Origin: Hysterangium stoloniferum | Taxonomy: Eukaryota > Basidiomycota > Agaricomycetes > Hysterangiales > Hysterangiaceae | NCBI GenBank assembly: GCA_015178975.1 | Contig: WHVD01000056.1 | Coordinates: 486,407 to 550,406 of the forward strand | Direction: 5' to 3' | Length of the DNA: 64,000 nt | Shown here: piece after piece, positions 3,044-63,957 of the stretch | Numbering within the stretch: position 1 is the first letter of the stretch | How the letters are laid out: every line of letters begins with the position of its first letter | Translations under genes and position numbers: made by a program | The notes under the pieces: model-generated | The model's database searches: none | What the model was told of the DNA's origin: nothing | The model's input: only the letters and a program-made list of their open reading frames with translations

Positions 3044-4487
3044 TCACAGTAGCGTCTCACCTATCAGAATGGTCGAAATGTGAGTTTCCGGGATGCTTAT
3101 AAGCGAACTTACCCAAGGCACTGCGAACGAGGGAACAGCCAACCTTCACAGTTTGTTCGACAGAGACCGGATCTAACAGGCTAGGGTTGACTTCCATAAG
3201 ATCCAAAGCGACGAGCAATCCGGTTTCACATATAGCTTCGCAAATGTAATGTCCCTCACGGAATGTCAAGCCCCCGCGAACCTTTTGGGGGCACATATGA
3301 ATTGACCATTAGGAAAAAAAGAGGGATAACACAGGAAACGCACTGGTGTACCGGTGCTCGGAGCAACGGAGGGATCTAATGCATCAACATCGAAACTAAG
3401 ATGGATTGGAAGGTCACGACCTGGATTGACATGATCGAGGGCCATTTCCACCACTTTTCCAATGCCATATTTATCCACCTCGTGCATGCTGAATGCTTTG
3501 ATACCATAGTCCTTCAAAATCTTTTTCTCGCCGGCATCCACATCACGAAGACCTATATATACTATTTTGTTCGGTTTAAGCACGGGGGAAACCCAGGAGA
3601 AAGCAGGGAGTTGATCGACTTTCTGTAGCCCGAGTAGGAAGGATACCGGCATGCCATGGATATTTCCTACGAAAAGCACGAATGACACATGCCTGTCCGA
3701 CGAGCATATAGCACATACCTGAATCAGTGGTTTCCGCGGTATTTATGTCGGTATGCGCATCGACCCAGACTACCTAACGGAGAAAATCAATTTAATGCTA
3801 GACATTGAGTTCAGGGGGCAAAATACCACCGCATCAGGATATTGACTGCAATAATCGGTGAATTAAAATTCCTATGCATACTTATGGAATACCAACCTGA
3901 AAGTTCCAGAGATGGTTCCCATGGCCTAAGTATGTCGTTAAAACCTACATACGTGAACCTGAAAAAATCACTGACCAGACTATGATCACCGCCTAGAGTC
4001 AAGGCTAGTTTTCCCTGTCGCATATGCCCACCGATGGTCTCTGCGACCGCTCCAGTAACACGGGAAACCAACCGCGGATTTTTTAACTTGCCAATCGGCG
4101 GGTCATCGGCGGCAGAAATTTCCTCAAACTGGTGGTGTCCTCCGAAGTCAACGGTCCACCCCAGTTCAGACAACTGGTCTAATAGACCAGCGTTGACTAG
4201 ATGGATTGGCCCGTCGTCCACACCAGGTCTTGGCTATTAATAAAACATAGAACGCTCTCAGCATCTAGCATGAAGTCTTAGGTTCGGCTCTCACCTGACC
4301 GCCACTTGGTAGCAAATAAAAGCATCAAAAATAGTACTTATAATGTATGGGCAACACACCTGAAAGGACAGCCTACTATCTGTAAGATCCGAGGAGTCGA
4401 GTTAGCATACAAGGAGGAGTTGAACGGCCCAAACAAATAACTTACAGCAACTGTCTTGGGCTCAGATAAAAAGCGGTGAGAAGTCAT
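3044..4487 (-). CDS. Arginase
   Basis: Binuclear manganese hydrolase that splits arginine into ornithine and urea, used for arginine catabolism in the cytosol. Ten exons on the minus strand: 4446-4487, 4360-4379, 4295-4304, 3976-4233, 3897-3925, 3827-3845, 3719-3773, 3344-3666, 3113-3281, 3044-3060. They give 313 residues, the usual fungal length. Metal-binding motifs are [17 protein letters not shown] and [10 protein letters not shown], and the C-terminal half has [10 protein letters not shown] and ALDLMEVNP. The exon at 4295-4304 is only 10 nt (SGGQ region), and four more are 17-29 nt, so automated predictors may miss them. The short exons are needed to keep the conserved segment [17 protein letters not shown]. 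Start chosen at the first ATG in frame with FLSEPKTVA. Divergent from the inositol kinase gene, with 190 bp between start codons. Confidence 0.93.
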
Positions 4488-4677
4488 GTTGATAGAATAA
4501 CTCAGATAAGCTGAAATGCAAGTAGTAGTATAATCGAAAGGGTAAGTCAAGGGTATGAAGTAGAAACTCGAGCGCTTAGCCCCTGTACATTATATAGCTT
4601 AATTACTCGCGGTCTTTCAACTTTGCCGTCCGCACCCGGTCTATTTTGCCGGAGAGCCTTCGGTGCTACATAACACG

Positions 4678-6121
4678 ATGTCGGCGCCAACAGTACGTTC
4701 AAGCACATGTCCTTCTCATAACTGGGGTGCCCCGCTGACACACCACATGGCAGACTTTCGTGGATATTACTACTACAGAGCCAAGAACGGCCTGGACCTA
4801 CCTTTCTGAAGGGGGCGCTACCATGGTCTTCTCATACACCGGCCAACCAAGTGATGAGTTTTCAGGGAAAGTTCTTCGTGTGCGAAAGTCCTTACGTCAT
4901 GGGGAAGATATCCATCATCATTCCGGAACACGGCAGAAGGCCGACTATCAGAGTGACGACGACTCAGTCGCCTTTCAAAACATCGTATCAAAGCTGATAC
5001 GGCCACAGTATCTGCCTGTGCTCCAGTATGTGCAAGTGTCGCAACAGTGGTTGAAAGAACTGGCAGAGGCGTCAGAGGCGCATCGACCGAGTGAAAGAAT
5101 TCAGACAGGCGGCATTGATACCGAAAGGCGTAATGCGTTGCTCGCCACCGATCTAATTGGTAAAGAAGGGTGGGCTGTAGAGATAAAGGTTATTAATTTG
5201 CCGTCATTGGAGGGATTGACAACTGATTCATAATGCCCCAGCCAAAATGGGGCTTTTTGCCCTCGTCAAAACATCTTTCTCCAGTCACGCGACCCCTTAA
5301 AATCCGACATTGCAGATTTTGCATGCATTCTCAGCTAAAAGGAGCTGAACCTAATGGGCCGGGCGCCACGGTGGCTGGATACTGTCCTTTAGACCTTTAC
5401 TCTGGTGAAGAAGAACGTGTGCGGTTTTCTTTGCGGTGCCTATGGAATATGTGGACAAGAACTCTAGGGAAGGCAAATAATCTCCGCATATTTAATTGCG
5501 GAGAAATCGTGGATCCAGCAGATGTGAGTGCTGTTGTATTCCAGTCTTACCAAGATAACACGCAAATCCCAGGCTGATTCTTTCGCTGCTTTCTCGAATA
5601 CCCTCAGCGATCACTATAATTCTGATTATACACTACCAAATTCAGATGTTGCCACAGTGTTTACAGAAGCGGTTCTTCCATTGATTCTAAACCATGACAT
5701 ATTGTCTGTACTTGGCGACCTTCAACGAACGCTTGATTCACTGGACATTGAAGGGCTTTCAAAACTATGGTCTGTTTCTCGACCAGGAATACCATTCGGT
5801 GAGGGTGAACTGGACCCCACACTCGCAGAATGGGTTGAGTTTGTCCAGGCATATTTGGCTGGTGACGTCAGTACCCTGAGATATGAGGTGCTTTCTTATC
5901 TGCTATCAGCAACGTTCAAGGATTGTTCTCTTATTTTACGATTCCCTTCCCAATCCAAAAATGGTCAGAAACCTGACGGTACCATTACCGTCATCGATTT
6001 GGATTCGAAAAGCGCAAGCCGGTTGGCCAGATGGGAGGCACTCGACTTGGAGATTGTAAAGAACTTTAGTGAAGTTTCAGTACAACGGAAGCCTTGCATC
6101 GACGCCAGACACAAGTCATGA
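4678..6121 (+). CDS. Inositol-pentakisphosphate 2-kinase (IPK1 type)
   Basis: Phosphorylates inositol pentakisphosphate at the 2-position to make phytate (InsP6), needed for mRNA export and signalling. Motifs seen: SEGGATMVFSYTG (ATP-binding loop), the EIKPKWGFLP family signature formed across an intron, CRFCMHSQLKG (zinc-binding cysteines known from this family), CPLDLYSG, and VIDLDSKS near the C-terminus. Exons used: 4678-4692, 4754-5188, 5242-5523, 5573-6121, giving 426 residues. The first exon is inferred. No in-frame ATG occurs between the upstream stop at 4736 and the ATP-binding loop, whereas ATG at 4678 followed by an intron with donor GTACGT and acceptor GGCAG joins in the correct frame. 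The start is therefore less certain than the rest. Confidence 0.88.
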
Positions 6122-6214
6122 GTTGGATTTCAGACGTGAATGCCTTGTAGAATACTCTGAATATAAACATACCTTGCTCGTTCGTCAGGGCTGCCCTCTT
6201 ATATTTTTCGCGCT

Positions 6215-7185
6215 TTCGTATAGGAAAACAAAGATGTCATTTTCCTGCCCCCGTACCACATAGAAACCACTTGGATCACTAATAAAAAATACTTTAAATA
6301 TCACAAATGTAATTTGCACGAAAAGAGCTAGTCAAAAGGAACGCTGGGCCTCGCGGCAAGGGGGTGCTATTTTTCCAGAAGTTGGACGCACGCTGCGTCG
6401 CTGTAATTGAGCCATATGTAAGAAAGAGGCTATTAGTAAAGTTTAACGAAGAGAAAATATTACTCTGCAGAGGACGAGGACATGCATATAAGGGCCTCCG
6501 AATCACTCACCGTATCCCGTTCTCTTCCCATCCCTCCGCGCAGTATTGCGATATTTTCTCTTCGTTAAAATCTACTATTAGCCTCCTTCTTCTATATGCT
6601 TCAAATACAGAGCCGCCGCATGCGTCCAACTTGTAGAAAAAATAGCACACCGTTTCTGCCCGCAGGCCCAGCGCTTTCTTTTTTTCGATTAGCTCTTTTC
6701 GTGTAGATTACATTTGAAGTACGTTTCTATTAGTGGTCCAAGTGGTGTTGGATTTCGAGCACCATACATGCGAATAGAGCTCCCTGCGCGATTGCGAGGG
6801 TCTTCTGCTATTCGAGGGCGTGATGAAAACACGCGTATTTCAATACAATCGCGCAGCATACCCTTTCGTGACATTCTAGTGGCTTGCTTCTAGTCTTAAA
6901 GGTTGCAGCATCTTACTAGCTGTAGAAGGCGGCGCAATGCCGAAAATACTGCAGAGAAGTTTCCATTACGATTTTGAAGGCGGGGCAGTGCCGAAAATAC
7001 TGCGGAGGATCACGATTACAATTTTTGACACCAAGAAGATTAAAGTCGCCATCGAGATTTGCGGGAATTTTTAAGTCCTCCAGAAGAATTTTCCGAGGAG
7101 AAGCACGTGCAGCGCCGCCGGGTGGTTTCTATGTGGTACGGGCAGGAAAATTACATCTTTGTTTTAGCGCTAAAATTTAGCAAAA
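6215..7185. repeat. Fold-back (long inverted-repeat) element interrupted by a 375-bp insertion
   Basis: The left arm, about 6224-6460, is an imperfect inverted copy of 6551-6746 plus 7127-7165. The outermost shared block holds AAAACAAAGATGT and GTACCACATAGAAACCAC. The loop is about 6461-6550. The right arm is split by 6747-7121, flanked by GTGGT on both sides (6742-6746 and 7122-7126), whereas the left arm is continuous at the matching point. This reads as a palindromic element later hit by a second insertion with a 5-bp target duplication. No transposase is visible. It sits between the inositol kinase and kinesin genes and probably belongs to non-autonomous DNA repeats. Short frames within it look spurious. 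Confidence 0.7.
6747..7121. mobile_element. 375-bp insertion inside the fold-back element
   Basis: Flanked by GTGGT direct repeats and absent from the mirrored left arm, so it is a later insertion. It contains a 51-bp tandem pair (6925-6975 and 6976-7026) sharing TGCCGAAAATACTGC, and an internal inverted pair GCGCGATTG/CAATCGCGC. I find no clear terminal inverted repeats and cannot assign a family. Confidence 0.5.
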
Positions 7186-7445
7186 CAGCGGAGTACAAAC
7201 TTATCTGCGAACAGCTGTAATTTGATAGTGCCAATGACATGTATACCCAGCCTGGCAATTTTTGGCAGGCAAGTCGCAACTAGAACGCCAGCTCGGTGAA
7301 AGGAAAGCAAGTAAGTATAAGGCTCAACGTCCGCGTTAACAGTGGTTGACAGCTACAAAGAAGCTCAAGAAAACTCAAACAAGTGTGCCTATTAGGTAAC
7401 ACACTAAAAGTCCGCCACACTCTGCTTCGCGACGTTGCTCAAGTA

Positions 7446-10400
7446 ATGGGCCCGCCATCTGCAGCCACAACCTCTGTGCAAGTTGGTCAGTATTGTATTT
7501 TTATTGTCACACAGTGCAGCTCTAATGCAGGTTACAGCTGTTCGTATCCGACCTACGACGAGCCATGATACCATTTCGATTCCAGCTAGATTTCAAAGGA
7601 CTGTCGTCCAGGCTGCCTCCACAACTTCTGTGCAGGTAGATTCGACACAGTCTGCACCTAATGGTATACCTAATAGCGGTGGAGGACAAGCTCCACCATC
7701 ATCCGCGGCCCCGACAAAGAAGCAGACCTACACTTTCGACCAGGTTCACTCTCCCTCAACCTCGCAGCATGCATTGTTTCAATCGACTGCAGAGCCTCTG
7801 ATATCTCGTTTTCTTCAAGGATTCAACTGTACTATCTTAGCTTATGGTCAGACATCTTCTGGTAAAACCTATTCAATGACTGGTGTTGACCTTGATGCGG
7901 ACCCTTCTGACCCCCATAACGGGATGGGAATCATTCCACGATCAGTATCGAAAATATTTGAACGCACTAGAAATATTAAGGAAGAACGAGGGGCCACCTG
8001 GTCATGTACCGTTAAAGGCTCCTTCATTGAAATTTATAATGAAGATCTCATCGACCTGCTTGGTGATGAGAACTTGAAACGAGAAGTTCAAATTCGCGAA
8101 GACAAGGATGGTCATATTATCTGGGGTGGTCTTCGAGAAATCACTGTCAAAAATGCTGGTGAAGTTATGAAGTACGTTTTTGCACCTGTACTGGACACAA
8201 TGCCTAATTTTGCCTTAGCCTCATTCGGCAGGGGACCTCAATCCGTCGCACTAACGAGACTGACATGAACGCTCAGTCTTCTCGGTCACATGCCATTTTC
8301 TCACTCACTCTAACGCAGAAGAAATACACTGGCTCAGGACTTCCAACTCGCAGCTCTTCTCCGCTCCCCCCTACCGGAAGGTCCCCATCCCGTCTCGCCC
8401 GACCTGGTTCTCTATACAGTGGCTCAGCGGGTCAAGTAAGTTCCCCTACTTTTGGTAGACCACCAACCCCTAGCTTTCATACTGCAATGAGTCGAGGTGG
8501 GGGCGGTCTTAGGCCAGGTAGTGCACTTGGGGGGCGTATCAGTCCAGCTCCTGGTCGAGATAAAGATGACGATGACGTTGGCGAATGGGTCACCATTGTT
8601 TCTAAATTCCATTTTGTAGATCTAGCCGGATCTGAACGGGTGAGCTCTCCAAGTAGGAACTGCCCGCTTTTACTGATGAATTCCTCAGTTGAAACGTACA
8701 GCAGCTGCCGGCGAGCGCATCAAAGAAGGCATTTCTATCAACAGTGGCCTATTGGCTCTTGGAAATGTGATCTCTGCACTGGGGGATCCTGCTCGCGCCA
8801 AGTCAAACACCGCGTCTCATGTACCCTACCGTGATTCCAAACTCACCCGTCTACTTCAAGATTCTCTGGGGGGCAATGCCAATACCCTCATGATCGCTTG
8901 CGTAAGCCCCGCTGAATGGAATGTTGGAGAAACGGTCAATACTCTGAAGTATGCTAACCGTGCCAGAAATATTCGGAATAGAGCTGTTGTAAATGAGAAG
9001 GAGGATGGTTGGGACGATATCGAATGGCTCCAGAATATGGTCACTCGGCTGAGGAAGGATTTGAAATCGATCAAAGAGGGCACCAACCTCAGTGGTCCGA
9101 CTGAACAGGAAACTGATGCTCCCAGCCGCGTGGCTTTGCAGCAATTCGTTGAACTCCAATCACAGCATGATGAGCTTCGTCACCAATTTACCCAGCGAAC
9201 GGAAGAGTTGACAAGACTGCGAAGGGAGCTCGGGGAATCTCAACGTGCCAGTGGTGGCAGCATACCCGGTACGGGGAAATATGAGGAGATTGTTGGCCCG
9301 GTCATCGAAGAATACGAGAAGGCTATTGCTTCCATGGAGGCAGAGCTCAGTCTTAACCGAGCGGCTCTTCGACACACCAATGATTTAATTACCGAAAAGG
9401 AGGAGGAACTTTCCGTTGTTAGTGAGCGTCATGCAGCGACAGAGCTTTATCTTGAAGAGCTTCGAGCCCGAGTAGCCAAGTTATTAGACCGGGAGGCTTC
9501 AACAGAGGTATGCGTGTTTTGCAACTATACGTACAGCGCCTTATGTCTACTGTATAGGCCTACGTCCGTGATCTCGAGGAGAAGATAAAAACTTTTGATG
9601 AAAAGAATGTCTCGTCAAGCTCAACTGTATCAGATTTGAAACGGGAAATACAGCAGCACAAAGACGCAGAATCACACTCTGTCGCGTATATTGCCGATCT
9701 TGAACTGAGACTTTCCCGTTCAGACGAAGATATCCTGTCACTTCGAGAGCGTGTGCAGCGCCTTGAGAATGAAGTAGAAGCTCGTATACAGGCAGCAGAG
9801 CTCCTTCAAAGGCGATTAGATGAAATAACTGCCGATGGACAAGCTTGGCGCAGCGATTTGGAACAACGCGAAGCCAAATTGAAGGAGCTTGAACGACAAT
9901 TAGAAGTTTGGGAGGAAAAGAAAAGAATCGTCGGCGAGGAGCGGGAACGCCTCGGGGACGTCGCAGGCGATGTGGCAAAGGCTAGACATAGCTTGGAGAT
10001 TGATATGCAGAGGCCCATTAACCCTACCTCAACTAGTGATGACAGTGTCGAAGAGCAACTTACTGCACTGCAACAAACTCATCAGGCGACTTTGGCAGAT
10101 CTCTCTGCCGTCACTGACAAATATCGAGATGCTTTACGTGAGATATCTGATCTTGCATCACAGATCCAGGAGGCGAAGCTCCAAGCTGCGGCAATTCCAG
10201 ACCCTTCTGACGACGGTTCGGAGCCTGTGGTGCCTCCTAGTCCTCGCCGACGACTTACCATGGGAGGGAGTCTTCGTTCACCTCGAGGTGGCGAACTTGG
10301 AATTGGCCAGACGAATGGGTCAGGACGACGGTCTTTTTTCAGGCAGGCGGCCTCAACCGAGTCGCTCCACGCGAGGTCGCTGTCACAATCGCAATCGCTT

Positions 10401-38774: not shown

Positions 38775-40590
38775 TCATATCGCTTCTAATGAACGTATGA
38801 AATTGTAGGTTACCCAATCCGAGTCTAATCCGACTACGTCTTTCTGTGGACTTTTTAACCCCACGCCCCCCAGTAGCAAAGGTTTGCGACCTTCGTACAG
38901 ACAAACAATTTTGGGTAACAACCAATTGCTATGTGGAACAACCAACACAGTCCCATTAGAGATTATAGAAGTTTGGATATCTTCAGGTAGTAACCATGGT
39001 CTAAGCGTTATGACAAAACGATTATCCCACAAGATAACTTGCTCCGTTTTTATAAACATAAATACAGACGTTATGTCTTGTTCACAGGGCGATGAAATGC
39101 CATGTCGCTTGATTGGCGGCTGTCGAGATGCAAGCCATCCAGGATTCCCTAACTCGTTTCCGTCTTGAGCTAGTTGAAACTCGCCATCGGACACGAAGGT
39201 TATAGGTCGCCATAAAACTTCACTACCGAGGGTGAATGGTTTTCTGTTACTATGTGAGTTCCAAAGATGATGGCAAATCTTCTGGAGATTAGTAGAGCCA
39301 CGGAACGCTTCGGCTGCAGGAGTGCCCCATGGCTTGGGAGAAATGAAACGGAGGATGCGGAGTACAATGGCTCGTTGGATCTGAGGAGCGAGTATCCTGT
39401 CGTAAATATAAGGTTGAAATGCCAGTGTCGATGGTGCGGACTGCCGTCTAGTTTTCAGTAAGAACCTAGTCACTATTGATCTCCGATCTTAGCCTCATAC
39501 AAACCATCCTTATCAATATTTTACCTTCATCGTCTATCTGGTGCTGTGACTGTAGCGCGACGTTCGCTGCCACCTGTAACCGTGATACCATGGGCATATC
39601 TCTTGACAGTCCACTGGTAAGCGCGTCGAGTTTGTTTACTGACCGTTCAATCTGCTTTACGTTAATTCGCGGCAGCTCCGCAGAGGGTCCAACAGGAGTC
39701 TGGAGACAAATTGAAGCTGGGTCGATATCAGAAGTTAACTATGAGAGAGAAGATATGAACCTTTCCTCCTAAGAGGTAATGTCGAATGTAATTGCGCGGC
39801 GTTAATAATGGCTGGAAATTGGTGGGGTCATTGACATAGGGTAGGTTATGGAGGTCACATGTCGCCAAAATGCGAGACTATTAAGATGAAAACATGTAGT
39901 AACGCATTTGGTGTTGCAAAAAATCCAACTCACCTTGGGCACACTCAATAAAGGCCGCACAATCCAATGGTGCATGCTTGATATTTTTTCATCTTCAAGA
40001 GTCATCCCCCAGCGACGACAGCGACGCATAGCTGTGAAGTTCAAAGAACCCTCGTTTTGAGTGGACAATCTCATAAGTAGCGTCTCGACATTATCATCTC
40101 CGTGATGACCGGTGGCTAAGACAGTAGCGTTCAGTTCTTTCATTGCGGTGAACAGAATCCTATATCGTGCTTCGCGAGCAACAGTTTCGAACGGCTTCCC
40201 AGGAAGGGGACGATTTGGAAAGGGTGGCTGCGACCATGGAATTGTGAGGACGCGAAATGGGATATTAAAGCGTTGAGCAAATTGCCGACAGCGCTCCGCT
40301 GTATCCGCAGACTTGGGTTGCAGTGAATGGTCTACAGACAACGCTACTACTTCAGACGGGCCATCATAGTCTACTTCCCTTTGTAGCAGCCAAGAGCGGA
40401 GAAGATAAAGTAGACAGGTAGAGTCAGCTCCGCCCGAGTACGCAACGGCTGCATATTATAAGAAAATTGATGCATAGCGTTGAGAATACTGAGTGAGACC
40501 TAGCACTTTCGATTTTCCCCATCCGTTGGGTGGTCGGCTTTGACGCAGCATGTGTCCAAGCTCCCCATAAGAGAGTGGTGATTTGCTCAT
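38775..40590 (-). CDS. tRNA(Ile)-lysidine synthase-like PP-loop protein (TilS family)
   Basis: N-type ATP pyrophosphatase; in bacteria and organelles the family converts the wobble C of tRNA-Ile(CAU) to lysidine. Exons 40500-40590, 39934-40448, 39761-39877, 39525-39699, 38775-39472 give 531 residues. The PP-loop is [16 protein letters not shown]; further marks are [45 protein letters not shown] and [24 protein letters not shown]. The C-terminal 230 residues are weakly conserved. Most likely it acts on mitochondrial tRNA, inferred from the family rather than from a clear presequence. Convergent with the SRP40-like gene, 138 bp apart. Confidence 0.88.
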
Positions 40591-53160: not shown

Positions 53161-54190
53161 TCTGGCAATGTATGTTAAGTTCTGGATCTCTGGGTGGAGT
53201 TTCCAGTGGATATTCCAGACACTTCCTGGAATGTGTCCATGGAGTTCTGGAGAATTAGTCTGGGAGTTTCCAGGGATTAGTCTGGGGTGTATTGGAATAT
53301 TACCAGAGTACAGGATGAACTTGGCTTCAGCTTATGTGCTGTGCCCTTGTGCACTCACTCAGGTGTCCATATTTCAGAGGGTGGATATACATATGCCAGA
53401 GTGTTTATGGATACTTGCTGTTCCAGAGAGTTCCAGATATTGAGCATACAGAAAGAACAAAGGAGCAGATTAGATCAAGACTAATTTGAGATTAAAACTG
53501 AGGAGTAAGTACATGACTATGGAAGACTATATAGATGTTCCAATAATTGTACTACAAGTCTGGGAGTATAATAAAACCTATTTGGAAACTGTTTCCAAAA
53601 TAAGCATACAATAACAAGTCAGATAAATGAGGAAACAAGGATGGGGACAGATCAGGGAATAAGAGTGAGAACAATAAACAGACAAATGAACATCTGTTAA
53701 CCAGTCAGTTACCAAATGTGGAACAAAGGAAGGGAGTTAGAATATCCACAGATATCTGCTGCTATCTGGAAATGGATCCTAACACTATAATAATTAAGTG
53801 TCCATATTTCTGGGAAAGCCATGGGTTCTGGGCAGGTCAGAACATTGGCATAGAGAAGTGACAAGGGTTAATAGGGATGATTGAGTGAAGGTTGGGTCAT
53901 GTATTAAAGATGTATATAGAACAAATGTAGGGAGCCTGGGTCAGGAAATGACTAGGGACATGGCAAGAAGTCAAATGTCAAAGGGTGGAGTCCAATGGGT
54001 TCTGGGTCATAACAGGAGGTGTGTAGTCGAGGGCAGAATGGGATTTGAGTTGAAGGGTACTGGAGGGATGAGGGTCAGGTTCTGGTGGATTCTGGATCTT
54101 GATCCTAGTCCAGAAGGTGGTTCAGAACCTGATATAATATCTGGGAAATTGTGAAGAGTGGTGGAAGTTCTAACTGTTCTATATACGAAG
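53160..54190. repeat. Degenerate repeat DNA, partly related to the gypsy LTR family
   Basis: ACTTGGCTTCAGCTTATGTG (53319 onward) is shared with the gypsy LTR at 58438, and the spacing to a following GGTGTCC/GATGTCC is similar. A second GTGTCCATATTTC block occurs near 53800. Many related TTCTGG/TTCCAG words give the stretch a simple-sequence look. No coding capacity seen. Confidence 0.5.
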
Positions 54191-54790
54191 AATATTGACC
54201 GTTTAGGAGGATAACCCAAAACTTTAAAAATTATTTATCCACTAAAGTATATATATTTATATTGTTTGTTGTAAAATTAATATTTAATCAAATTCAGTTG
54301 ATTAGGTATCACTCTGAAGAATGCAAAAATATTAATATTTATCCTATATCTGACAAAATTTAGTCAAACAATTGTCTGTAGATTATTCTTTTGGAATAAA
54401 TTGCACAATGGGGATTGGTACCCCAGATAGTTCTGGTTAACTCTCTAAACCAACTAAATTTAAATTATATGAAATATATTTGAAAGTTTGCTTGTATACA
54501 ACAGAATACATCATAACCCAAAGATTAAGTCATAACCCAAATAATCTTGTTTAACCCAAATGATCTTGTTTAACCCAAATAATCTAGGTTGACCCAAATA
54601 ATCTTGTGTAACTATATCATTTGTGTGTATTTTAAAAGGACATGCATATTTTAAAGATGAAATTTCAGGTAATTAAATATAAACTCATAGAATAAGTTGT
54701 CATGGCCAGAAGGAATAGACTCACTTAGAAAATATAAGGATTATTCAGTAAAATTTTGTATATTCAATAAAGTGTGACCATCCTCCTTAG
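54190..54790 (-). repeat. AT-rich composite repeat, copy B
   Basis: Counterpart of 48580-48960, with the two blocks in a different order and relative orientation. Between them (54520-54605) a run of CCCAAATAATCT / CCCAAATGATCTTG words is repeated about five times. Confidence 0.7.
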
Positions 54791-55489
54791 GTACGACATG
54801 TAGTTGTATTGACTGTCTAAGTCTAATACACACTGAACGAGTATTGACTACTTAGTTCAATACATTTGAGTGAAGTAGCTATCTAGAGTAGAGTAGAGAG
54901 CTACATAAAATGAATAAAGGGAATCGACCATTAGGTGCAATTCCAAAAGACTGCTCGAGTGTAGAAAAGAGTAACGAGAGTCGAATAATGGAGTAGCGCA
55001 GATGTGGTCCATGTGGATTGAGATATAGGTGGAGTTTTGACTGGTACAGTTCGAAACTCTGATTGTGTAGATAGTTGAAGCCCATCTGTGACGGTCGAGA
55101 CGATACCCCAATCACAACTTACAGGACACTAACTAGGTGTCTGAGTAAGTTGTGGTTGCAGGGTAAAAGTGTCTGAGTTTTAAACTATGGGCGCTAGAAT
55201 ACATAAGTCTGGCATGTATGCACCCACAAGAGTCGATGTACTGCATACATAGGTCATCGAACTAATTATAAGTGTATAATAAAATAGAGAGAGAGTAGAA
55301 ATAATAAAGGAAATATAGTATGAGCTCATCCAGACTATATTTCCTGAGTATATTTTGCCGTACCTCTCACAGTGCCCCCCAGGTCGAAGAGCTATGTCAA
55401 AGAAGGTGTCGAAGGATGTTTGGAACTCCTCCCCATACATGCTGTGATGAACCTCCGAGGTGTAGGATAACATTTCCCCGCCGGCCTTT
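54791..55489. other. Non-coding stretch before the pol fragment
   Basis: No supported gene. AT-rich, with repeated TAGAGTAGAG words near 54884. It may be flanking element sequence, but I cannot define ends. Confidence 0.35.
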
Positions 55490-56071
55490 TTGCTGATGGG
55501 ATACTTACCGAGAGGAATGTCTCGCTGCCTAGGAGGGGACGACCCCGTGGTTCCCAGGGAATTATCAGATAGCCCTTTAGCTGACCAATGGATCTTAGAA
55601 CTGGAAAACCATCGACAAGTTGCACGGGATTCGATTGCTCGAGCACAAGAAACACAAGCTCGCAGCTACAATAAGAAAAGGAGATCGGTGGAAGATATCT
55701 CAGAGGGGGATTATGTTCTAATCAATCCCCACTCCCTTGAGCTTGTCGAAGCCAAAGGACCTGGAAGGAAACTTATACAAAGACAGATAGGGCCGTTCAA
55801 AGTCTTGGAGAAGATCAATCCTCAAGTCTTTCAACTCCGCATTCCCTCAGAATACCAACTACACCCAGTGATCAACCGAGACCATCTTAAAAAGTACCAC
55901 CTCTCCCCTAAGGAATTCGGATCAAGGGAGCTACTCGAGAATCCTCGGGAACTCAATCATAATGACGAGGAGTATGAAGTAGAAGCTATAGTAGGGCATA
56001 AAAAGCATGAAATCAACTCCTTTTCTGAGTTTGATGGAAGGGATATGGACCGGAAGAGGACACCTGGTTAA
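55490..56071 (+). mobile_element. Ty3/gypsy pol fragment (integrase C-terminal end and start of a chromodomain)
   Basis: The reading frame contains RSYNKKRRSVEDISEGDYVL, GPFKVLEKINPQVFQLRIP and HPVINRDHLKKYH, the usual end of gypsy integrase, then EEYEVEAIVGHKKH, the beginning of a chromodomain. The rest of the element is missing on both sides, so it is a broken fossil. It lies on the opposite strand from the larger gypsy element to its right and is a different lineage by sequence. Confidence 0.85.
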
Positions 56072-56330
56072 ACGGCAACAACCTTTGTAATGCCCCTGCT
56101 CTTCTCAGAGCTTACAAAACTATTTATCGAATCTAATAATCATTTTATCTTCTCACGACGACAACACCATTTATTTACTTCTAACTCTACCCTTCACTAT
56201 TCATCCCCCTCGGCCTTTCACCTCAATAACCGAGCAGAGCTTGAAATTAATATAAAATATGTAAATTCACTAAGGAAAATTTCATCCCCCTGTCTCTTCT
56301 CTCCATGTCAACCTCTCAAATCGGTACACT

Positions 56331-58380: not shown

Positions 58381-59106
58381 TGTTAAGAACTGAAAACTGA
58401 CTAATGTTGGTGGCTGACAGGGACCGATCGGAAGGACTTGGCTTCAGCTTATGTGCTGCACCCTCGCAAATATCCGTAGGATGTCCTTAAATTTCGGGCG
58501 GGCGAAGACTAATCCTAATGAGTACCTTTCGGCGTGATACTGATCGGAATCGAAGGACAAGTCGAGCATCGGGCCAAGGGGTCGGGGCCGGGAGTGGGCG
58601 AGCGCACGCGAAGGCGGATGGATGGGGGGATTCTTAGTATGAGACTGATACAGGCGTATGAGGGTATTCTGAGTCGATATTCTGATTGCCTAGTGACTAC
58701 AACTACAGCGGGTTCATATACAAGTAACAGGTGTCTGGAAAATACTAATGGGGAGAAGGGTGGAACACGGTATTAACAATAAGCTTGACTAGGAACGGGA
58801 AGTTTATGATTAGTTCGGAGGCCGATGATAACCGAGAGCGGGATTACGATAAAAGGAAATAGTTCACGGACTACAAATATAGATAGACATATGCAAAACA
58901 TAAGATTGGACGGATCAACATAATAAAGGGGACATATCAAAGTTTGACCAGACAATACGAGTTATTTTGACGTGGGCATAAACGGAGTTTGATCTTCGCG
59001 AAAACATTCGTCAGCTTCGGGGCCGATGGTTTCCGATAGGATGACTTGAAACGTTGACAAGTGGCGATAACCTCGGGACCGATAGGGTTGCGACACGGTC
59101 GTAACA
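58381..59106 (-). repeat. 3' LTR of the gypsy element
   Basis: 726 bp bounded by TGTTA and TAACA inverted ends. On the minus strand it starts TGTTACGACC directly after a purine tract (59107-59122, AAAAGGGGAGATAC), the priming site expected next to a 3' LTR. Its far end abuts the interrupted proline-rich ORF. Confidence 0.85.
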
Positions 59107-59222
59107 GTATCTCCCCTTTTGGCCGAAATCCCAAGGAGGCCGAAAATCTAGATCCCGTACGTAAAACTTGTCGGGTACAGCTGGGTGTGTCAAAACATCA
59201 TGTGACTCGGCAAAATTTTGCA

Positions 59223-59230
59223 TATAAAAG
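59223..59230 (+). promoter_or_regulatory. TATA box of the antisense gene inside the gypsy element
   Basis: TATAAAAG lies 50 bp before the ATG at 59280, outside the LTR, followed by a pyrimidine-rich leader ending in AACCACC before the ATG. This suggests the antisense gene has its own promoter. Confidence 0.6.
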
Positions 59231-59279
59231 TTTGAGGGTTCCTGGCGCTTGAAATTTTACTTCCCTTCCTTTAACCACC

Positions 59280-60258
59280 ATGACCATAGGCTCGGGGTCA
59301 AAACCCTTCCCGGTTAGGTTAACAGTTGCGCCCATGTCAGTGCCGAGTGGTACGGCGAACGCGAAGGAGCGTCAGCGTATACTCGAGCAGAAGAAAAAGG
59401 CGCGTGAAGAGGAGGAGCGGAAGGAGAAGGAGGAGTTGGCGGCCATCGAGGCTGAGGAGAAGAAACAGGCGGCAGAAGAGGCTGTGTGCAAGCACTGGGA
59501 AGCAGTGCTTGCAAAGAACAAGCAGCAGGAGGCCGATCGGGTGCGGGAGGAGGCGGTGAAAAAGAAGCGGGAGGGAAAGGTAAGTCAGCTCTGGTTTCTT
59601 TTGCGAACCTTACTGACAATATTTGTTAGCGCAAGGCTGCAACGCCTTCGGAGTCTGATGACAAAGAGGGAGAGGAGGACGAGGAGGATGCACTGGGGCT
59701 GTCGAGCCCCAAGGTGGGTTCGATTTCCTTAAATAAAACTTCCCTAAATAATTTTTCCTATAGAAACAAAAGCAGGCCCCCAAGGTGGGGCCCGAAAATG
59801 ACCCCAAGTGCAATCAGTGCACAAAACGGGGTCGAAACTGTCATCCCCGGACCAATGGTCGGGGCCGCACTTGTCAAGAGTGTGCCGATCAGAAGCTTGG
59901 GTGTGTTTTCCCGGGGGCCGATGGTTCATTCCAGGAGCGACAGGCCGATGCTCTAGAAGAGCAAAACTGCCTCATGCGGACCTACTTCTCGGAGATGAGT
60001 CGGTTCCGATATGAGACGTTGCGACAACAAGGGCTCATAACTGAGCAATTGCGACTCTTGGGCGTCGGGCTGGAGAAACAGACCAGTGTTATCGAGTCTC
60101 TCGGTGGTCAACTTGAGCAGTATTTGGAAGTCTCGAGTTGCGATGGGCATGAAATTGGGGTTTCGGAGAAGGTCGGTGGTGTGGTATCGGTGGCTGTCGG
60201 TGTGGAGGAGGGTTCGGAGGCCGGAGAGGAGGGAGAAGTTGTAGAGGGAGAAACTTAG
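59280..60258 (+). CDS. Coiled-coil protein with Zn2Cys6-like cluster, antisense within the gypsy element
   Basis: Exons 59280-59579, 59630-59713, 59764-60258, with canonical phase-0 introns, give 292 residues. The N-terminal third is a highly charged helix (KKAREEEERKEKEELAAIEA). An acidic linker follows (DDKEGEEDEEDALG). A cysteine cluster CX2CX6CX10CX2CX6C (from CNQC to QKLGC) matches the spacing of fungal binuclear zinc clusters, though it is internal rather than N-terminal. A second helical segment (about residues 185-250) and an acidic Val/Glu/Gly-rich tail end the protein. It lies wholly between pol and the 3' LTR of the gypsy element but on the other strand. Function is unknown; DNA binding is only a family-based guess. 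It has its own TATA box. Its stop is 95 bp from the convergent end of pol. Confidence 0.75.
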
Positions 60259-60353
60259 ATAATGAAATTATATTGGTTTTTCTTTAAACAAACAAATCAT
60301 AGTGTGAAAACATAAGGCATAGTCGGAAAAAGGTCGGGTACCGCGTGATAGAC

Positions 60354-63269
60354 TTATAAAGAATTGAGAGGACCGGGTTTGTTCGGATAAGCTTGGTGAA
60401 ACCCTAAAATGATTTCCGAGGCATTACCAAGCTCTGTAGCTAGGATCCATGAAGTTTCTTCATCTGTACCTTCATAGCCAGCCCATTTGACCAAATAAAG
60501 TAATTTGCATGAGTGTCGGCGATTGTCGATTTTTGAGTCTAGGATCTCTGATATCTCAAATTCGGGTTCCCCATCAATAATCACGGGTGGAGGTGGTGGT
60601 TGTATGCGATCGGGTATACTGTTAGGAATGCACGGTTCTAACATAGATACATGAAATACCGGGTGCACTGCACGCATGTTGTCGGGGAGCCGAAGCGTCC
60701 ATGAAAGTGTGCCGGCTTGTGCTATAACTTCAAACGGACCTAAATATTTTTCAGAGAGCTTCTTAGAAGGTCTAGTAGTTTGGAAAAACTCGGCTTTAAT
60801 GAATACTCGATCTCCGATCTTGAAATCAGGAGGTGGAAGTCGGTTTTTATCTGCAGACCGTTGGTATCGTTCTTGGGCCATTGCGATAGTTTTACAAAGT
60901 TCTTGATGTAGCTCGTCAAGGTTGGTAACGAAGTCTTGAGCACAGGCAGATGCGAGATCGCGTTCCGGGTGGATTGCGATGTTGGGGTTGTAGCCTTTAT
61001 TTGCGAAGAAAGGCGAAATGCCAGTAGTGGCATTTGGTGCGTTGTTATATGCGAATTCAGCTAGCGGTAGTAGTGATTTCCAATTGTCTTGTTGATAGTT
61101 GCAATAGACACAGATGTATTGTTCCAAGGTTTGATTCATGTGTTTGGTTTGTCCATCGCCTTCCGGGTGATAGCCTGAAGTGAAATGTAGCTTCATGTCT
61201 AGTGCTTTTCCGAGTGACCTAAAGAAGTGAGAAACAAACTCGGATCCACGATCGGATGTGACATGCGACAAAACGCCATGCTTGGAGAATACGTGGGTGA
61301 CGAATAATTCAGCTAACTGTACAGATGTTATCGTGTCATATGTTGGAATGAAAATACTTTGCTTTGAGAGCCGATCCACAACAACTAGGATTGCTGTGTG
61401 ACCTTCGGATGCCGGTAGGTGCTCGATAAAATCCATAGAAATCGAGTTCCAAGGTTTTTCCGGTATCGGTAATTGTTTGAGTAGGCCATAAGGTTTGTGT
61501 CGCTGTGATTTAGAGCGTAAACACGTAGTACAGGATTTACAATAGTGCTTAACAAAATCTCGGATGCCGGGCCATGTATATTCTCTTCTAATGAGTGAGA
61601 GGGTCTTATTGAGGCCGAAATGTCCCGAGATTGGGTGGTTGTGCTTATGTTGTAGGATTCGCAGCCGAAGGGTGTCGGAATCCGGTACATAAATGCGATT
61701 GTCAAGTCTAATGAAACCTTGTGAGTCTAATGACCATCGGGGCTGATCGGGGTCGGACGGGTTATCGAGGTGTGCTTTGGTGACTGGGTCTAATGGAATT
61801 GCCGATAGTATATCTTGATGTAACTTTTCGGTATCCATAAGGATAACACTTCGCAAGACTGGATGAATGAGGTAAGTGGCTCGGATAGACGCGGACAGTT
61901 GTTCCGATGAAAACATAGGCTTGAAATTATGCGGGTTAACTGTGGCGTAGTCGCTACTCCCCTCTTTAGGATAGACGTCCCATCGTCTAGTCATAGCGTC
62001 GGGTTTTCCACCAAGGCGGCCGGGGCGGAAACGAATTACCATGTTGAAAGCAGAGAGGTATTCGGACCATTGAGCTTGTCGACGGGTGAGAGGTTTTGTG
62101 GTTGAAAAGTAAACTAAATTTTTGTGGTCTGTAATAACATCTACTGGGTGGGCCGAGCCTTCCAAATAATGTTGCCATGTCTTGAAAGCTTCAAATATTG
62201 CGAGTAATTCCTTATTGTGAACGTCATAGTTGAGTTCGGGCGCCGAAAATGTGCGAGACAGAAAAGCGACTGGGTGTACTTCACCATCGGTGTCCAGAAT
62301 GGACAATATTGCGGCAAGCGCATAGTCCGAAGCATCAGTTTCCACGATGAGTTGAACGTCGGGCTTCCAGTGCGACAAAATAGGGGCGGATGTAAACGCA
62401 CTTTTCAATTCCTGGAATGCCGATCGGCATTCTTCGGAGAAATTCCACGGGGCATCTTTACGAGTAAGACGGGTGAGCAGGATGGTAATTTTTGAGTAGT
62501 TGTGAATGAAACGACGATAAAAATTGGCGAAGCCTAGAAAGGATTGAATATCCTTAACCTTCCGGGGTTCCGGCCAATCTTGAATGACTTGAATTTTAGA
62601 GTCGTCCATGCGGAGACCATCAGGTCCCATCATAAACCCTAAATATTCAACTGTGTCGACATCAAAAGAACATTTTTTACCATTCACAAAAAGACCATGT
62701 TTTTGGAGTCTTCGGAGAACTTCACGAACGTGTCCGTCATGAAGTGTAGGATCTTCGGAGAATATGAGGATGTCGTCTAAATACACAATGACAAAGATGT
62801 CGAGGAGGTCGGAAAAGACGTCGTTGATAAAACATTGAAAGACCGACGGAGCATTGGTGAGGCCGAAAGGCATTACTAACCATTCAAAGGAGCCATAGCG
62901 AGTGCGAAAAGCCGTTTTCCATTCGTCGCCTTCAGCGATCCGAACCAAATGATAGGCATGCTTGAGATCTATCTTTGTATAGATTCGGGCTTCCGAGGGG
63001 CATCGAGTAAATCGGAGATTAATGGTAATGGGTACTTGTCTTTTCGAGTGATCGCATTTAGTCCTCGAAAAATCAATGCAAAGTCGAAGGGAACCGTCTT
63101 TTTTCCGAACGAATAGGACAGGGGCTCCATAAGGAGACTTTGAGGGTCGGATAAAACCTATAGCCAAATGTTCGTCCAAGAAATCTCGGATAGCCGATAA
63201 TTCGGACTGCGAGAGAGGATAAACCGGGCCTAGGGGCGGATGTGAACCATCTTCAATATCAATTTTCAA
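60354..63269 (-). mobile_element. Gypsy pol: reverse transcriptase, RNase H, integrase, chromodomain
   Basis: Long reading frame with the reverse-transcriptase palm (VIVYLDDILIFSE), RNase H (LIVETDASDYALAAIL), integrase zinc region (HPISGHFGLNKT, CTTCLRSKSQ) and core (SMDFIEHLP, GYHPEGDGQTKHMNQTLEQY), and a C-terminal chromodomain (LYLVKWAGYEGTDEETSW). The chromodomain puts it among chromoviruses. Described as a fossil; part of the reverse-transcriptase region does not read normally. Confidence 0.92.
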
Positions 63270-63342
63270 ATCGTAAGGCCTGTGAGGGGCGAGTCGATCG
63301 GCTTTTTGTTTACTGAAGACATCTGCAAATTCATGGTATTTT

Positions 63343-63957
63343 TCAGGAACACCTTCTAAATCTGCGATTGGTTTTGGTCACCGGGGATGCAAAGCGACCG
63401 GTGACTTCGTCAACTTTAAGATTGACTGTAAATGCTCGGGAGCCATCCAACTTGATGGCTCTCATAAAAGCTGCGGCATTTATTAGAGAGACGGGCGGCG
63501 GAGAGCTCGGATTTGCCACGGGGGCCGGAGGTGCTGTAGAGGCCATATTTGCCGAGACAGGCGGAAACAGACCAGTCATAACGGGCACCGACGGGGTTCG
63601 GAAATGGATACTGCCCAATACCCAATCAATCAACGGATTGTAGCAGGTGAGCCAGTTATGTCCTAGAACCACGGAGCAGCTCGGGTCCAACTGTGTTACA
63701 AAAAACGTAACTGTCTGAAAGGTTCCACACGGGAACCAAAGTCGGAGTTCGCAGGCTTGCGAGATTACGGAGTTTGAGGTACCATCAAAGAGTCGGAGCG
63801 GAATCGGATCTATTGCGTAGGTTTTTAACTGATTTTTTCTGGAAAAACTTGTATCTATAAAACAATGGGTTGAACCTGAATCTATGAGAGCTCGAAATGT
63901 GAGGGTCCCGAGAGGTTCCGAGGTAAGATTTATGAACAAGGAATTAGGATCATACAA
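63343..63957 (-). mobile_element. Gypsy protease region
   Basis: Retropepsin-like sequence with [13 protein letters not shown] and [17 protein letters not shown], typical of gypsy proteases of mushrooms, followed by a Pro/Ala-rich linker toward the reverse transcriptase. The upstream gag part continues past the window edge. Confidence 0.85.

Follow-up and report, generated by a model that had tools for sequence, protein, structure and literature searches.

Antisense genes are known from retroelements of more than one kind: HBZ of HTLV-1 is spliced, and Zhao et al. reportedly described in 2011 that Boty-like elements of Botrytis cinerea carry an antisense gene, brtn. Two papers mention an additional antisense gene in these fungal elements (PMC8365987, PMC7264820), and antisense accessory ORFs have long been catalogued in LTR retrotransposons, with their function left open (PMC7264820, PMC11963269, PMC8365987). 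Among plant Ty3 elements, Grande gene23, RIRE2, Retand TRP28 and PvRetro13 are examples of aORF-3R; the Grande frame has its own promoter, and a DNA-binding role has been proposed for TRP28 (PMC7264820, PMC11963269). The main text of PMC11963269 does not contain the word "intron". The antisense promoter of retroviruses (HTLV-1 HBZ) sits in the 3' LTR (PMC7264820). A protein of another kind is VANC21 of the Arabidopsis VANDAL elements, which binds a short word of its own family and removes DNA methylation (PMC5735166). VANC words are located in noncoding sequence, frequently in tandem, and related proteins have different words (PMC5735166).

The gene described here lies in a stretch of 64,000 nucleotides from Hysterangium stoloniferum, hereafter the window, inside a Tf2-like chromovirus (Ty3) whose pol half is on the minus strand. 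Pol (60354..63377, minus strand) is open over 1007 aa in the window. Pfam detects reverse transcriptase, RNase H, the integrase H2C2 and core domains and SH3_Tf2-1, with a chromodomain just below the cut-off (24.8 in the window against 25.1; 29.5 in family D, see below). The Tf2-like integrase SH3, the chromodomain (sub-cut-off in the window), a 5-bp duplication and a self-primer are all present, a set of features that we take to define a Tf1/Tf2-type chromovirus. The LTR at 58381..59106 (minus strand, TGTTAAGAAC...GTAACA), 3' relative to pol, was delimited by the LTR pair and the 5-bp duplications of complete copies. Since the window stops at the contig end, inside the element, the 5' LTR was read in other copies. 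In one of these, L012, internal bases 3-13 after the 5' LTR (ATATTCTGATT) pair without mismatch over 11 nt with position 421 of the LTR sense strand, in the manner of Tf1-type self-priming. The corresponding 11 nt in the window (58677..58687, minus strand), whose sense strand is complementary to these first internal bases, are probably the self-priming site and likely the start of R. The polypurine tract (plus strand GTATCTCCCCTTTT) and the adjoining GGCCGAAATCCCAAGGAGGC block occupy 59107..59140 on the minus strand and have close counterparts in the related families B, C and D. Beside the tract, families A-D (L050, L058, L062) retain a block, GCCGAA(A/G)T(C/T)CCA..GAGGC, amid diverged surroundings; it is possibly a functional extension of the tract or a protein site. 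On the plus strand, window positions 54000-56100 hold the tail of another Tf2-like element (SH3_Tf2-1). In this DNA TCGA, which as a palindrome is scored once per strand, is in excess (30 vs 10), and its count in the pol tail of that element is 5 vs 3.3, not significant.

Between the pol stop and the 3' LTR, antisense to pol, lies the accessory gene, which we call aORF. It has three exons and two 50-nt GT-AG introns, and its predicted spliced product measures 292 aa. On the plus strand, exon 1 (59280..59579) encodes a charged part, coiled-coil-like by eye, that ends in EGK. It is followed by intron 1 (59580..59629, phase 0, GTAAGT..TTAG), exon 2 (59630..59713, RKA..SSPK), intron 2 (59714..59763, phase 0, GTGGGT..ATAG) and exon 3 (59764..60258), which comprises the zinc cluster, predicted helices and a TAG stop. 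The TATA box CATATAAAAG at 59221..59230 (plus strand) reads CATATAAAAG or CATATAAAAA in 34 of 41 aligned copies. The original prediction had proposed a three-exon frame with canonical introns and its own TATA box, on the strand opposite to pol between pol and the 3' LTR. All these parts were found where it had placed them, and the extents of pol and LTR bear out the location. The conserved TATA box suggests transcription from the gene's own promoter, and splicing is predicted from the exon-intron structure. By established logic, antisense introns do not present their splice sites in the pol-sense RNA; the aORF introns would hence persist through retrotransposition, since that RNA does not have them as introns.

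The element of the window belongs to family A, and three further families of the same genome carry a related gene at the same place. Families B (L050, L053-L055) and C (L058, L059) were found by walking out from pol copies that had no close match. The family B aORF is about 68% identical to that of A in DNA. In family C, pol shares 84% protein identity with A over 160 aa, and the aORF 27% over 289 aligned codons. Family D was found as a nested element in L011; its reference is L062, from which the L011 copy differs beside the second acceptor. In the copies read, all four families share the architecture of a TATA box, a charged exon 1 ending in GK, an exon 2 of the form RKA..K and a cluster in exon 3. 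Both introns are in phase 0 at the same sites in A, B (L050), C (L058) and D (L062). In BLAST of the spliced proteins, B, C and D match one another, and A matches B and C. With exon 3 alone, E-values were 2e-7 for A-D (0.20, not significant, for the whole proteins with composition-adjusted BLAST), 4e-8 for B-D and C-D, 1e-4 for A-C and 9e-7 for B-C. At least eight family B places have an identical, open exon 3. The exon-3 matches considered were the best 150 of 960 candidates for family C and the best 150 of 1177 for family D, and 20 of the 150 places listed for D have the same score and an open exon 3. Recently active lineages therefore keep the gene. In the reverse complement of L011, at about 3740-9880, the D element, its pol broken into three frames, is nested in an A copy; there, the A insertion thus preceded that of D. 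Several family B and D places lie less than 5 kb from a contig start, and the window's element is also cut by the contig end; these families may break the assembly.

Searches for further copies showed the gene as a part of the element. With its DNA we obtained at least 41 matches, 39 of which covered the query in full at 93-100% (of 302 candidates, 40 were scored), and the exon 3 protein matched at least 150 places at 72-100% identity (best 150 of 416). The copies L010, L012, L018 and L021 are complete: they have both LTRs (about 720-735 bp), enclose the gene and are flanked by 5-bp target duplications (CAATC, GGGTG, GCAGG and CATAT, respectively; junctions read by eye). This rules out a single host gene caught between two elements, a possibility that the original prediction had raised against itself. 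The antisense ORF sits at the same place with both introns in other copies, too. Of the 146 listed places that match the last 261 aa of pol, 126 have exon 3 of family A, B or C next to them (97 A-like, 6 C and 4 B read directly, 19 B matched by eye); 5 more were read and have part of the gene missing, and 15 fall into neither class, these counts being lower bounds. The five with part of the gene missing, L049, L051, L052, L056 and L057, are half of ten regions picked for an absent exon-3 match, which is not a fair sample. The original reading as a gene carried antisense by the element is supported. It follows that a single copy can lose the aORF; perhaps, such copies are helped by others. In L049 and L051, the deletions lie beside pol frames open over 1302 and 1286 codons, and these two were possibly mobilized with the help of complete copies.

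Conservation of the spliced frame was followed in a family A alignment of 41 copies, 21 of them close and 20 chosen by hand to span the identity range of the exon-3 matches. Both introns are GT-AG in 38 of the 41 (intron 1 in 40, intron 2 in 38). The spliced frame is fully open in 11/41, and the unspliced frame from the start is open beyond 156 codons in 0/41. By parsimony, non-CpG changes per site at codon positions 1/2/3 amounted to 1.15/0.92/2.62 in exon 1, 0.17/0.45/0.89 in exon 2 and 0.68/0.63/2.13 in exon 3; no steady third-position excess was seen in introns and flanks (1.07-2.19 non-CpG changes per site). A chance frame is ruled out by this third-position bias in the exons together with the conservation of introns and frame across the 41 copies. 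Of 36 copies compared with that of the window, the 15 whose dS exceeds 0.15 gave dN/dS values of 0.13-0.33, and the 21 whose dS is below 0.12 gave 0.26-0.83, as expected if decay after insertion dominates in close copies. L036, L038, L041 and L042, with exon 1, exon 2 or the end replaced or unalignable, were left out of this set. Variants found in at least two copies had an N/S of 58/133, singletons one of 106/54 (p 2e-11; counted without CpG transitions and without variants present in over half of the copies). The spliced frame is under purifying selection, and change among subfamilies is not neutral by codon-position rates, dN/dS and shared variants alike, which answers the question of synonymous versus nonsynonymous change raised by the original prediction.

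The aORF protein joins the coiled-coil-like part to a CX2CX6CX10CX2CX6C cluster (CNQCTKRGRNCHPRTNGRGRTCQECADQKLGC, 59809..59904, plus strand). Its six cysteines are invariant in 6/6 proteins of the alignment, with X9 in place of X10 in family D. Zn2Cys6 domains (PF00172) have the spacing CX2CX6CX5-12CX2CX6-8C, into which the aORF proteins fall. The Zn_clus gathering score of 21 bits was not reached by any protein scanned. Pfam matched 3/7 family A members (best E 0.036) and, below the cut-off, a B fragment (12.4 bits), C (8.7) and a D piece (9.6); whole A and whole B proteins gave no match. In hhalign against five Gal4-type clusters, all six cysteines aligned (probability 73%, E 3.2e-5). The family D loop between cysteines 2 and 3 (NDRNTE or NDQNTE) is without the usual basic residues. 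AlphaFold modeled exon 3 alone with a mean pLDDT of 61, about 50 in the cluster, and with long helices of fair confidence after it; sequence searches of the PDB and one IMG/VR scan gave no lead. The Zn2Cys6-like character claimed at the outset is therefore partly supported, by cysteine spacing and profile similarity, while scores stay below the Pfam gathering score, and we call the protein Zn2Cys6-like rather than a proven member. Gal4-type clusters read CGG triplets. The aORF protein may bind two zinc ions and CGG-containing DNA.

A first sign of such a target came while testing U3 for CGG, when TCGG/CCGA was found enriched in most A and B segments (LTR, aORF and pol) and CGGAA, in place of TCGG, in family C. 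In the noncoding DNA beside the gene, an unsupervised word ranking against dinucleotide shuffles put TCGG first of 135 words in A (19 vs 8.3 expected) and in B (26 vs 10.1) and CGGAA first of 376 in C (16 vs 2.8). In D, CGGAC ranked third of 398 (9 vs 2.5), with GACTC and AGCGG ahead. Pol was ranked with protein and codon usage held fixed by synonymous shuffles. Here TCGG ranked first of 136 words of four letters in both A (54 vs 36) and B (30 vs 19); the first of 512 words of five letters in C was CGGAA (37 vs 17). For D, CGGAC came fourth of 512 (19 vs 9.4), behind CCACG, CACGG and GTGGA, GGAC topped the four-letter words and TCGG was low (27 vs 34). The top five-letter pol words of A (TCGCA) and B (ATGCG) are not CGG words, and C pol has a TCGG excess as well (57 vs 39), so that the family words overlap. 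In the aORF coding sequence, the word was in excess in A (20 vs 13.4) and C (19 vs 8.9), and in B for TCGG alone (14 vs 6.9). In D, CGGAC was not significant (2 vs 1.2) and its reverse GTCCG had p 0.04 (5 vs 2.4); in A and B, the rarer orientation was not significant. Each orientation alone exceeded expectation in the pol of every family, with p below 0.03 (0.08 for TCGG of B), p-values here being per word and uncorrected, from 200-1000 shuffles, and the ranks among all words the fairer measure. No orientation imbalance in noncoding DNA was significant. An excess in both orientations is as expected of a signal in double-stranded DNA; an RNA-level word on one strand is ruled out by the excess of each orientation in pol and the lack of significant imbalance in noncoding DNA.

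Because the pol genes of the four families share ancestry, they do not count as independent trials. Another Ty3 pol, in L019 and 28% identical to that of A, showed no CGG excess (51 vs 50.0), CGG is absent from the seven highest-ranking words at each word length, and no zinc-cluster frame other than that of family A was seen at its locus. TCGG was not in excess in nine further window ORFs, taken from stop to stop and partly overlapping (z -1.7 to 1.1), nor was CGG in six ORFs of at least 200 aa that are neither A pol nor D (two in L012, two in L014, one each in L019 and L028; z -3.0 to -0.9). A general host word is ruled out by 20 kb of host DNA, where TCGG/CCGA occurs 132 times (127 expected). 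Between A and B pol, 54/65 TCGG sites are kept vs 418/540 other CG-containing 4-mers (p 0.34). Regarding spacing, pairs of the A word form direct repeats 10 bases apart 6 times, which is within chance (equalled in 123/2000 random placements), and among about forty spacings examined in U3, CGG-N2-CCG occurs in A only (2 vs 0.1 expected). No further zinc-cluster frame besides the aORF was seen in the whole window. One of the nine window ORFs, a 237-codon open frame on the minus strand (38778-39488), contains CGGA 10 times vs 3.6 expected (z 4.2 at the synonymous level).

Comparison of A with B pointed to a unit formed by the gene and the adjacent LTR part. In 150-base windows (L050 and L053), identity stands at 83-96% over the LTR as far as about 58900, falls to 59-77% across 58900..60375 and is 83-93% again in pol from about 60376. 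This divergent module, delimited by sliding identity and the dS contrast, comprises the distal U3, the polypurine tract region, the aORF promoter, the aORF and a spacer. For pol, dS is 0.21 (583 codons) vs 1.78 for the aORF, and fourfold sites differ at 38/265 vs 50/88 (p 3e-14). A subfamilies show the same tendency, with dS 0.11-0.52 in pol tails (75-105 codons) vs 0.26-1.03 in the aORF (10 copies). The simplest reading is that the module was exchanged as a block by template switching. Alternatively, the whole U3-to-aORF block may have evolved faster. Under exchange or faster evolution alike, the distal U3 and the aORF go together.

The conserved zinc-cluster gene, together with a CGG-core word whose flank varies by family as the protein does, suggests that the protein recognizes the DNA of its own family. 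We may thus propose the aORF as a standing accessory gene in a clade of Tf2-like Ty3 elements, driven by its own TATA promoter and with two spliceosomal introns that would persist through retrotransposition. Its product, a coiled-coil-like part with a Zn2Cys6-like cluster, would bind the family-specific CGG-core word across LTR, aORF and pol and would thereby recognize copies of its own family and regulate them. Our leading guess for the effect is anti-silencing, as by VANC for VANDAL. That the gene is a conserved accessory gene whose protein recognizes the CGG-core word of its own family and regulates its copies, most plausibly by keeping them unsilenced, appears to us somewhat probable; repression or copy-number control would fit the data almost as well as anti-silencing. 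Several results weigh against recognition of the word by the protein: the sub-cut-off Pfam scores of the cluster, the D loop lacking basic residues, TCGG sites not significantly better kept between A and B pol than other CG-containing 4-mers, the overlap of words through the TCGG excess of C, higher-ranking other words in places, non-significant counts in part of the aORF coding sequence, the CGGA excess of one window ORF and word-pair spacing within chance. Copies with gene deletions beside long open pol frames, too, speak against the accessory role. More tentatively, one may speculate on a self-recognition code. Here, the protein would read its family word (TCGG, CGGAA or CGGAC), selected even at synonymous pol sites, and counter the silencing of its own copies only; proteins and words would diverge together, and U3 and aORF could be exchanged as a regulatory cassette.

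Other explanations may be weighed against this; they are not mutually exclusive, and their likelihoods need not sum to one. The same gene could encode a repressor, a copy-number brake or a regulator of the U3 promoter only, with the word as a by-product or a host-factor site. We hold this to be rather unlikely: the aORF and the distal U3 do go as one module between A and B, and CGG boxes are present in U3 too, but the word is enriched in pol and aORF besides the LTR, more than a promoter-only regulator needs. Alternatively, the CGG words might stem from mutational or codon-context bias unconnected with the gene. The null models hold dinucleotides or codon usage only, other ORFs have top words of their own, the four pol genes share ancestry and one Ty3 pol is a thin control; such a bias would however have to differ between families within one genome, recur in noncoding and coding DNA and spare both the other Ty3 pol and the 20 kb of host DNA, and we regard this explanation, too, as unlikely. 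A protein of the replication cycle, e.g., for nuclear import of the pre-integration complex or a chaperone, with a structural or RNA-binding cluster and CGG words of other cause, would be compatible with charged helical parts and a zinc cluster, and PMC7264820 proposes such roles for antisense aORFs. It would leave unexplained why LTR and pol hold family-specific words in either orientation and why another Ty3 pol is free of them, and we regard it as improbable. Very improbable is a once-useful gene that now decays neutrally as a passenger, with apparent selection as older history: raised dN/dS in the 21 close copies, only 11/41 aligned copies intact and deletions in 5/10 regions picked for lack of a match would agree with it, but any copy should decay once inserted, the variants shared by copies have a strong synonymous bias, and the identical open exon 3 at eight or more B places and the same-score, open D places among those listed speak against it.

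Recognition of the family word by the aORF protein, which we prefer, also frames the comparison with known systems. Antisense accessory ORFs as such are already known from plants and from fungal Boty elements. New here is an intron-bearing, zinc-cluster-like aORF that four or more Ty3 families within a single genome possess, accompanied by a family-specific word; among the papers listed from the open-licence literature, no title or abstract opening pointed to a fungal LTR element whose antisense gene has introns or is Zn2Cys6-like. Like the plant aORF-3R, the gene is an extra one, antisense between pol and the 3' LTR, present in most copies and conserved as a protein. Unlike them, it has two conserved spliceosomal introns, encodes a Zn2Cys6-like protein, resides in a chromovirus of Tf2 type with a short pol-LTR gap and goes with a family-specific word across the element. 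With Boty, it shares the setting of a fungal LTR element with an extra antisense gene. The six-cysteine spacing and the fungal protein type are those of Gal4-type Zn2Cys6 factors (PF00172), whereas the aORF protein stays below the Pfam cut-off, has a long charged part before the cluster and is encoded by a retrotransposon. HTLV-1 HBZ is also antisense, spliced (as predicted for the aORF) and a regulatory protein of a retroelement, as the aORF protein would be; the aORF promoter, unlike that of HBZ, is internal and not in the 3' LTR. The introns provide a clean marker, as spliced plus-strand reads can come from the antisense gene only.

VANDALs are DNA transposons, while the carrier here is an LTR element, and the words are dispersed and found also at synonymous pol sites, unlike those of VANC. 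What both have in common is an element-encoded protein and short family-specific words in its own element, here at the level of word enrichment, which is weakest in family D. With the CGG-core word across the element DNA, the question of aORF function gains a concrete partner, and the word may let each element family recognize its own copies. If the protein reads the word, what antisense aORFs are for becomes a matter of a binding assay, and retrotransposons would gain a counterpart of VANC.
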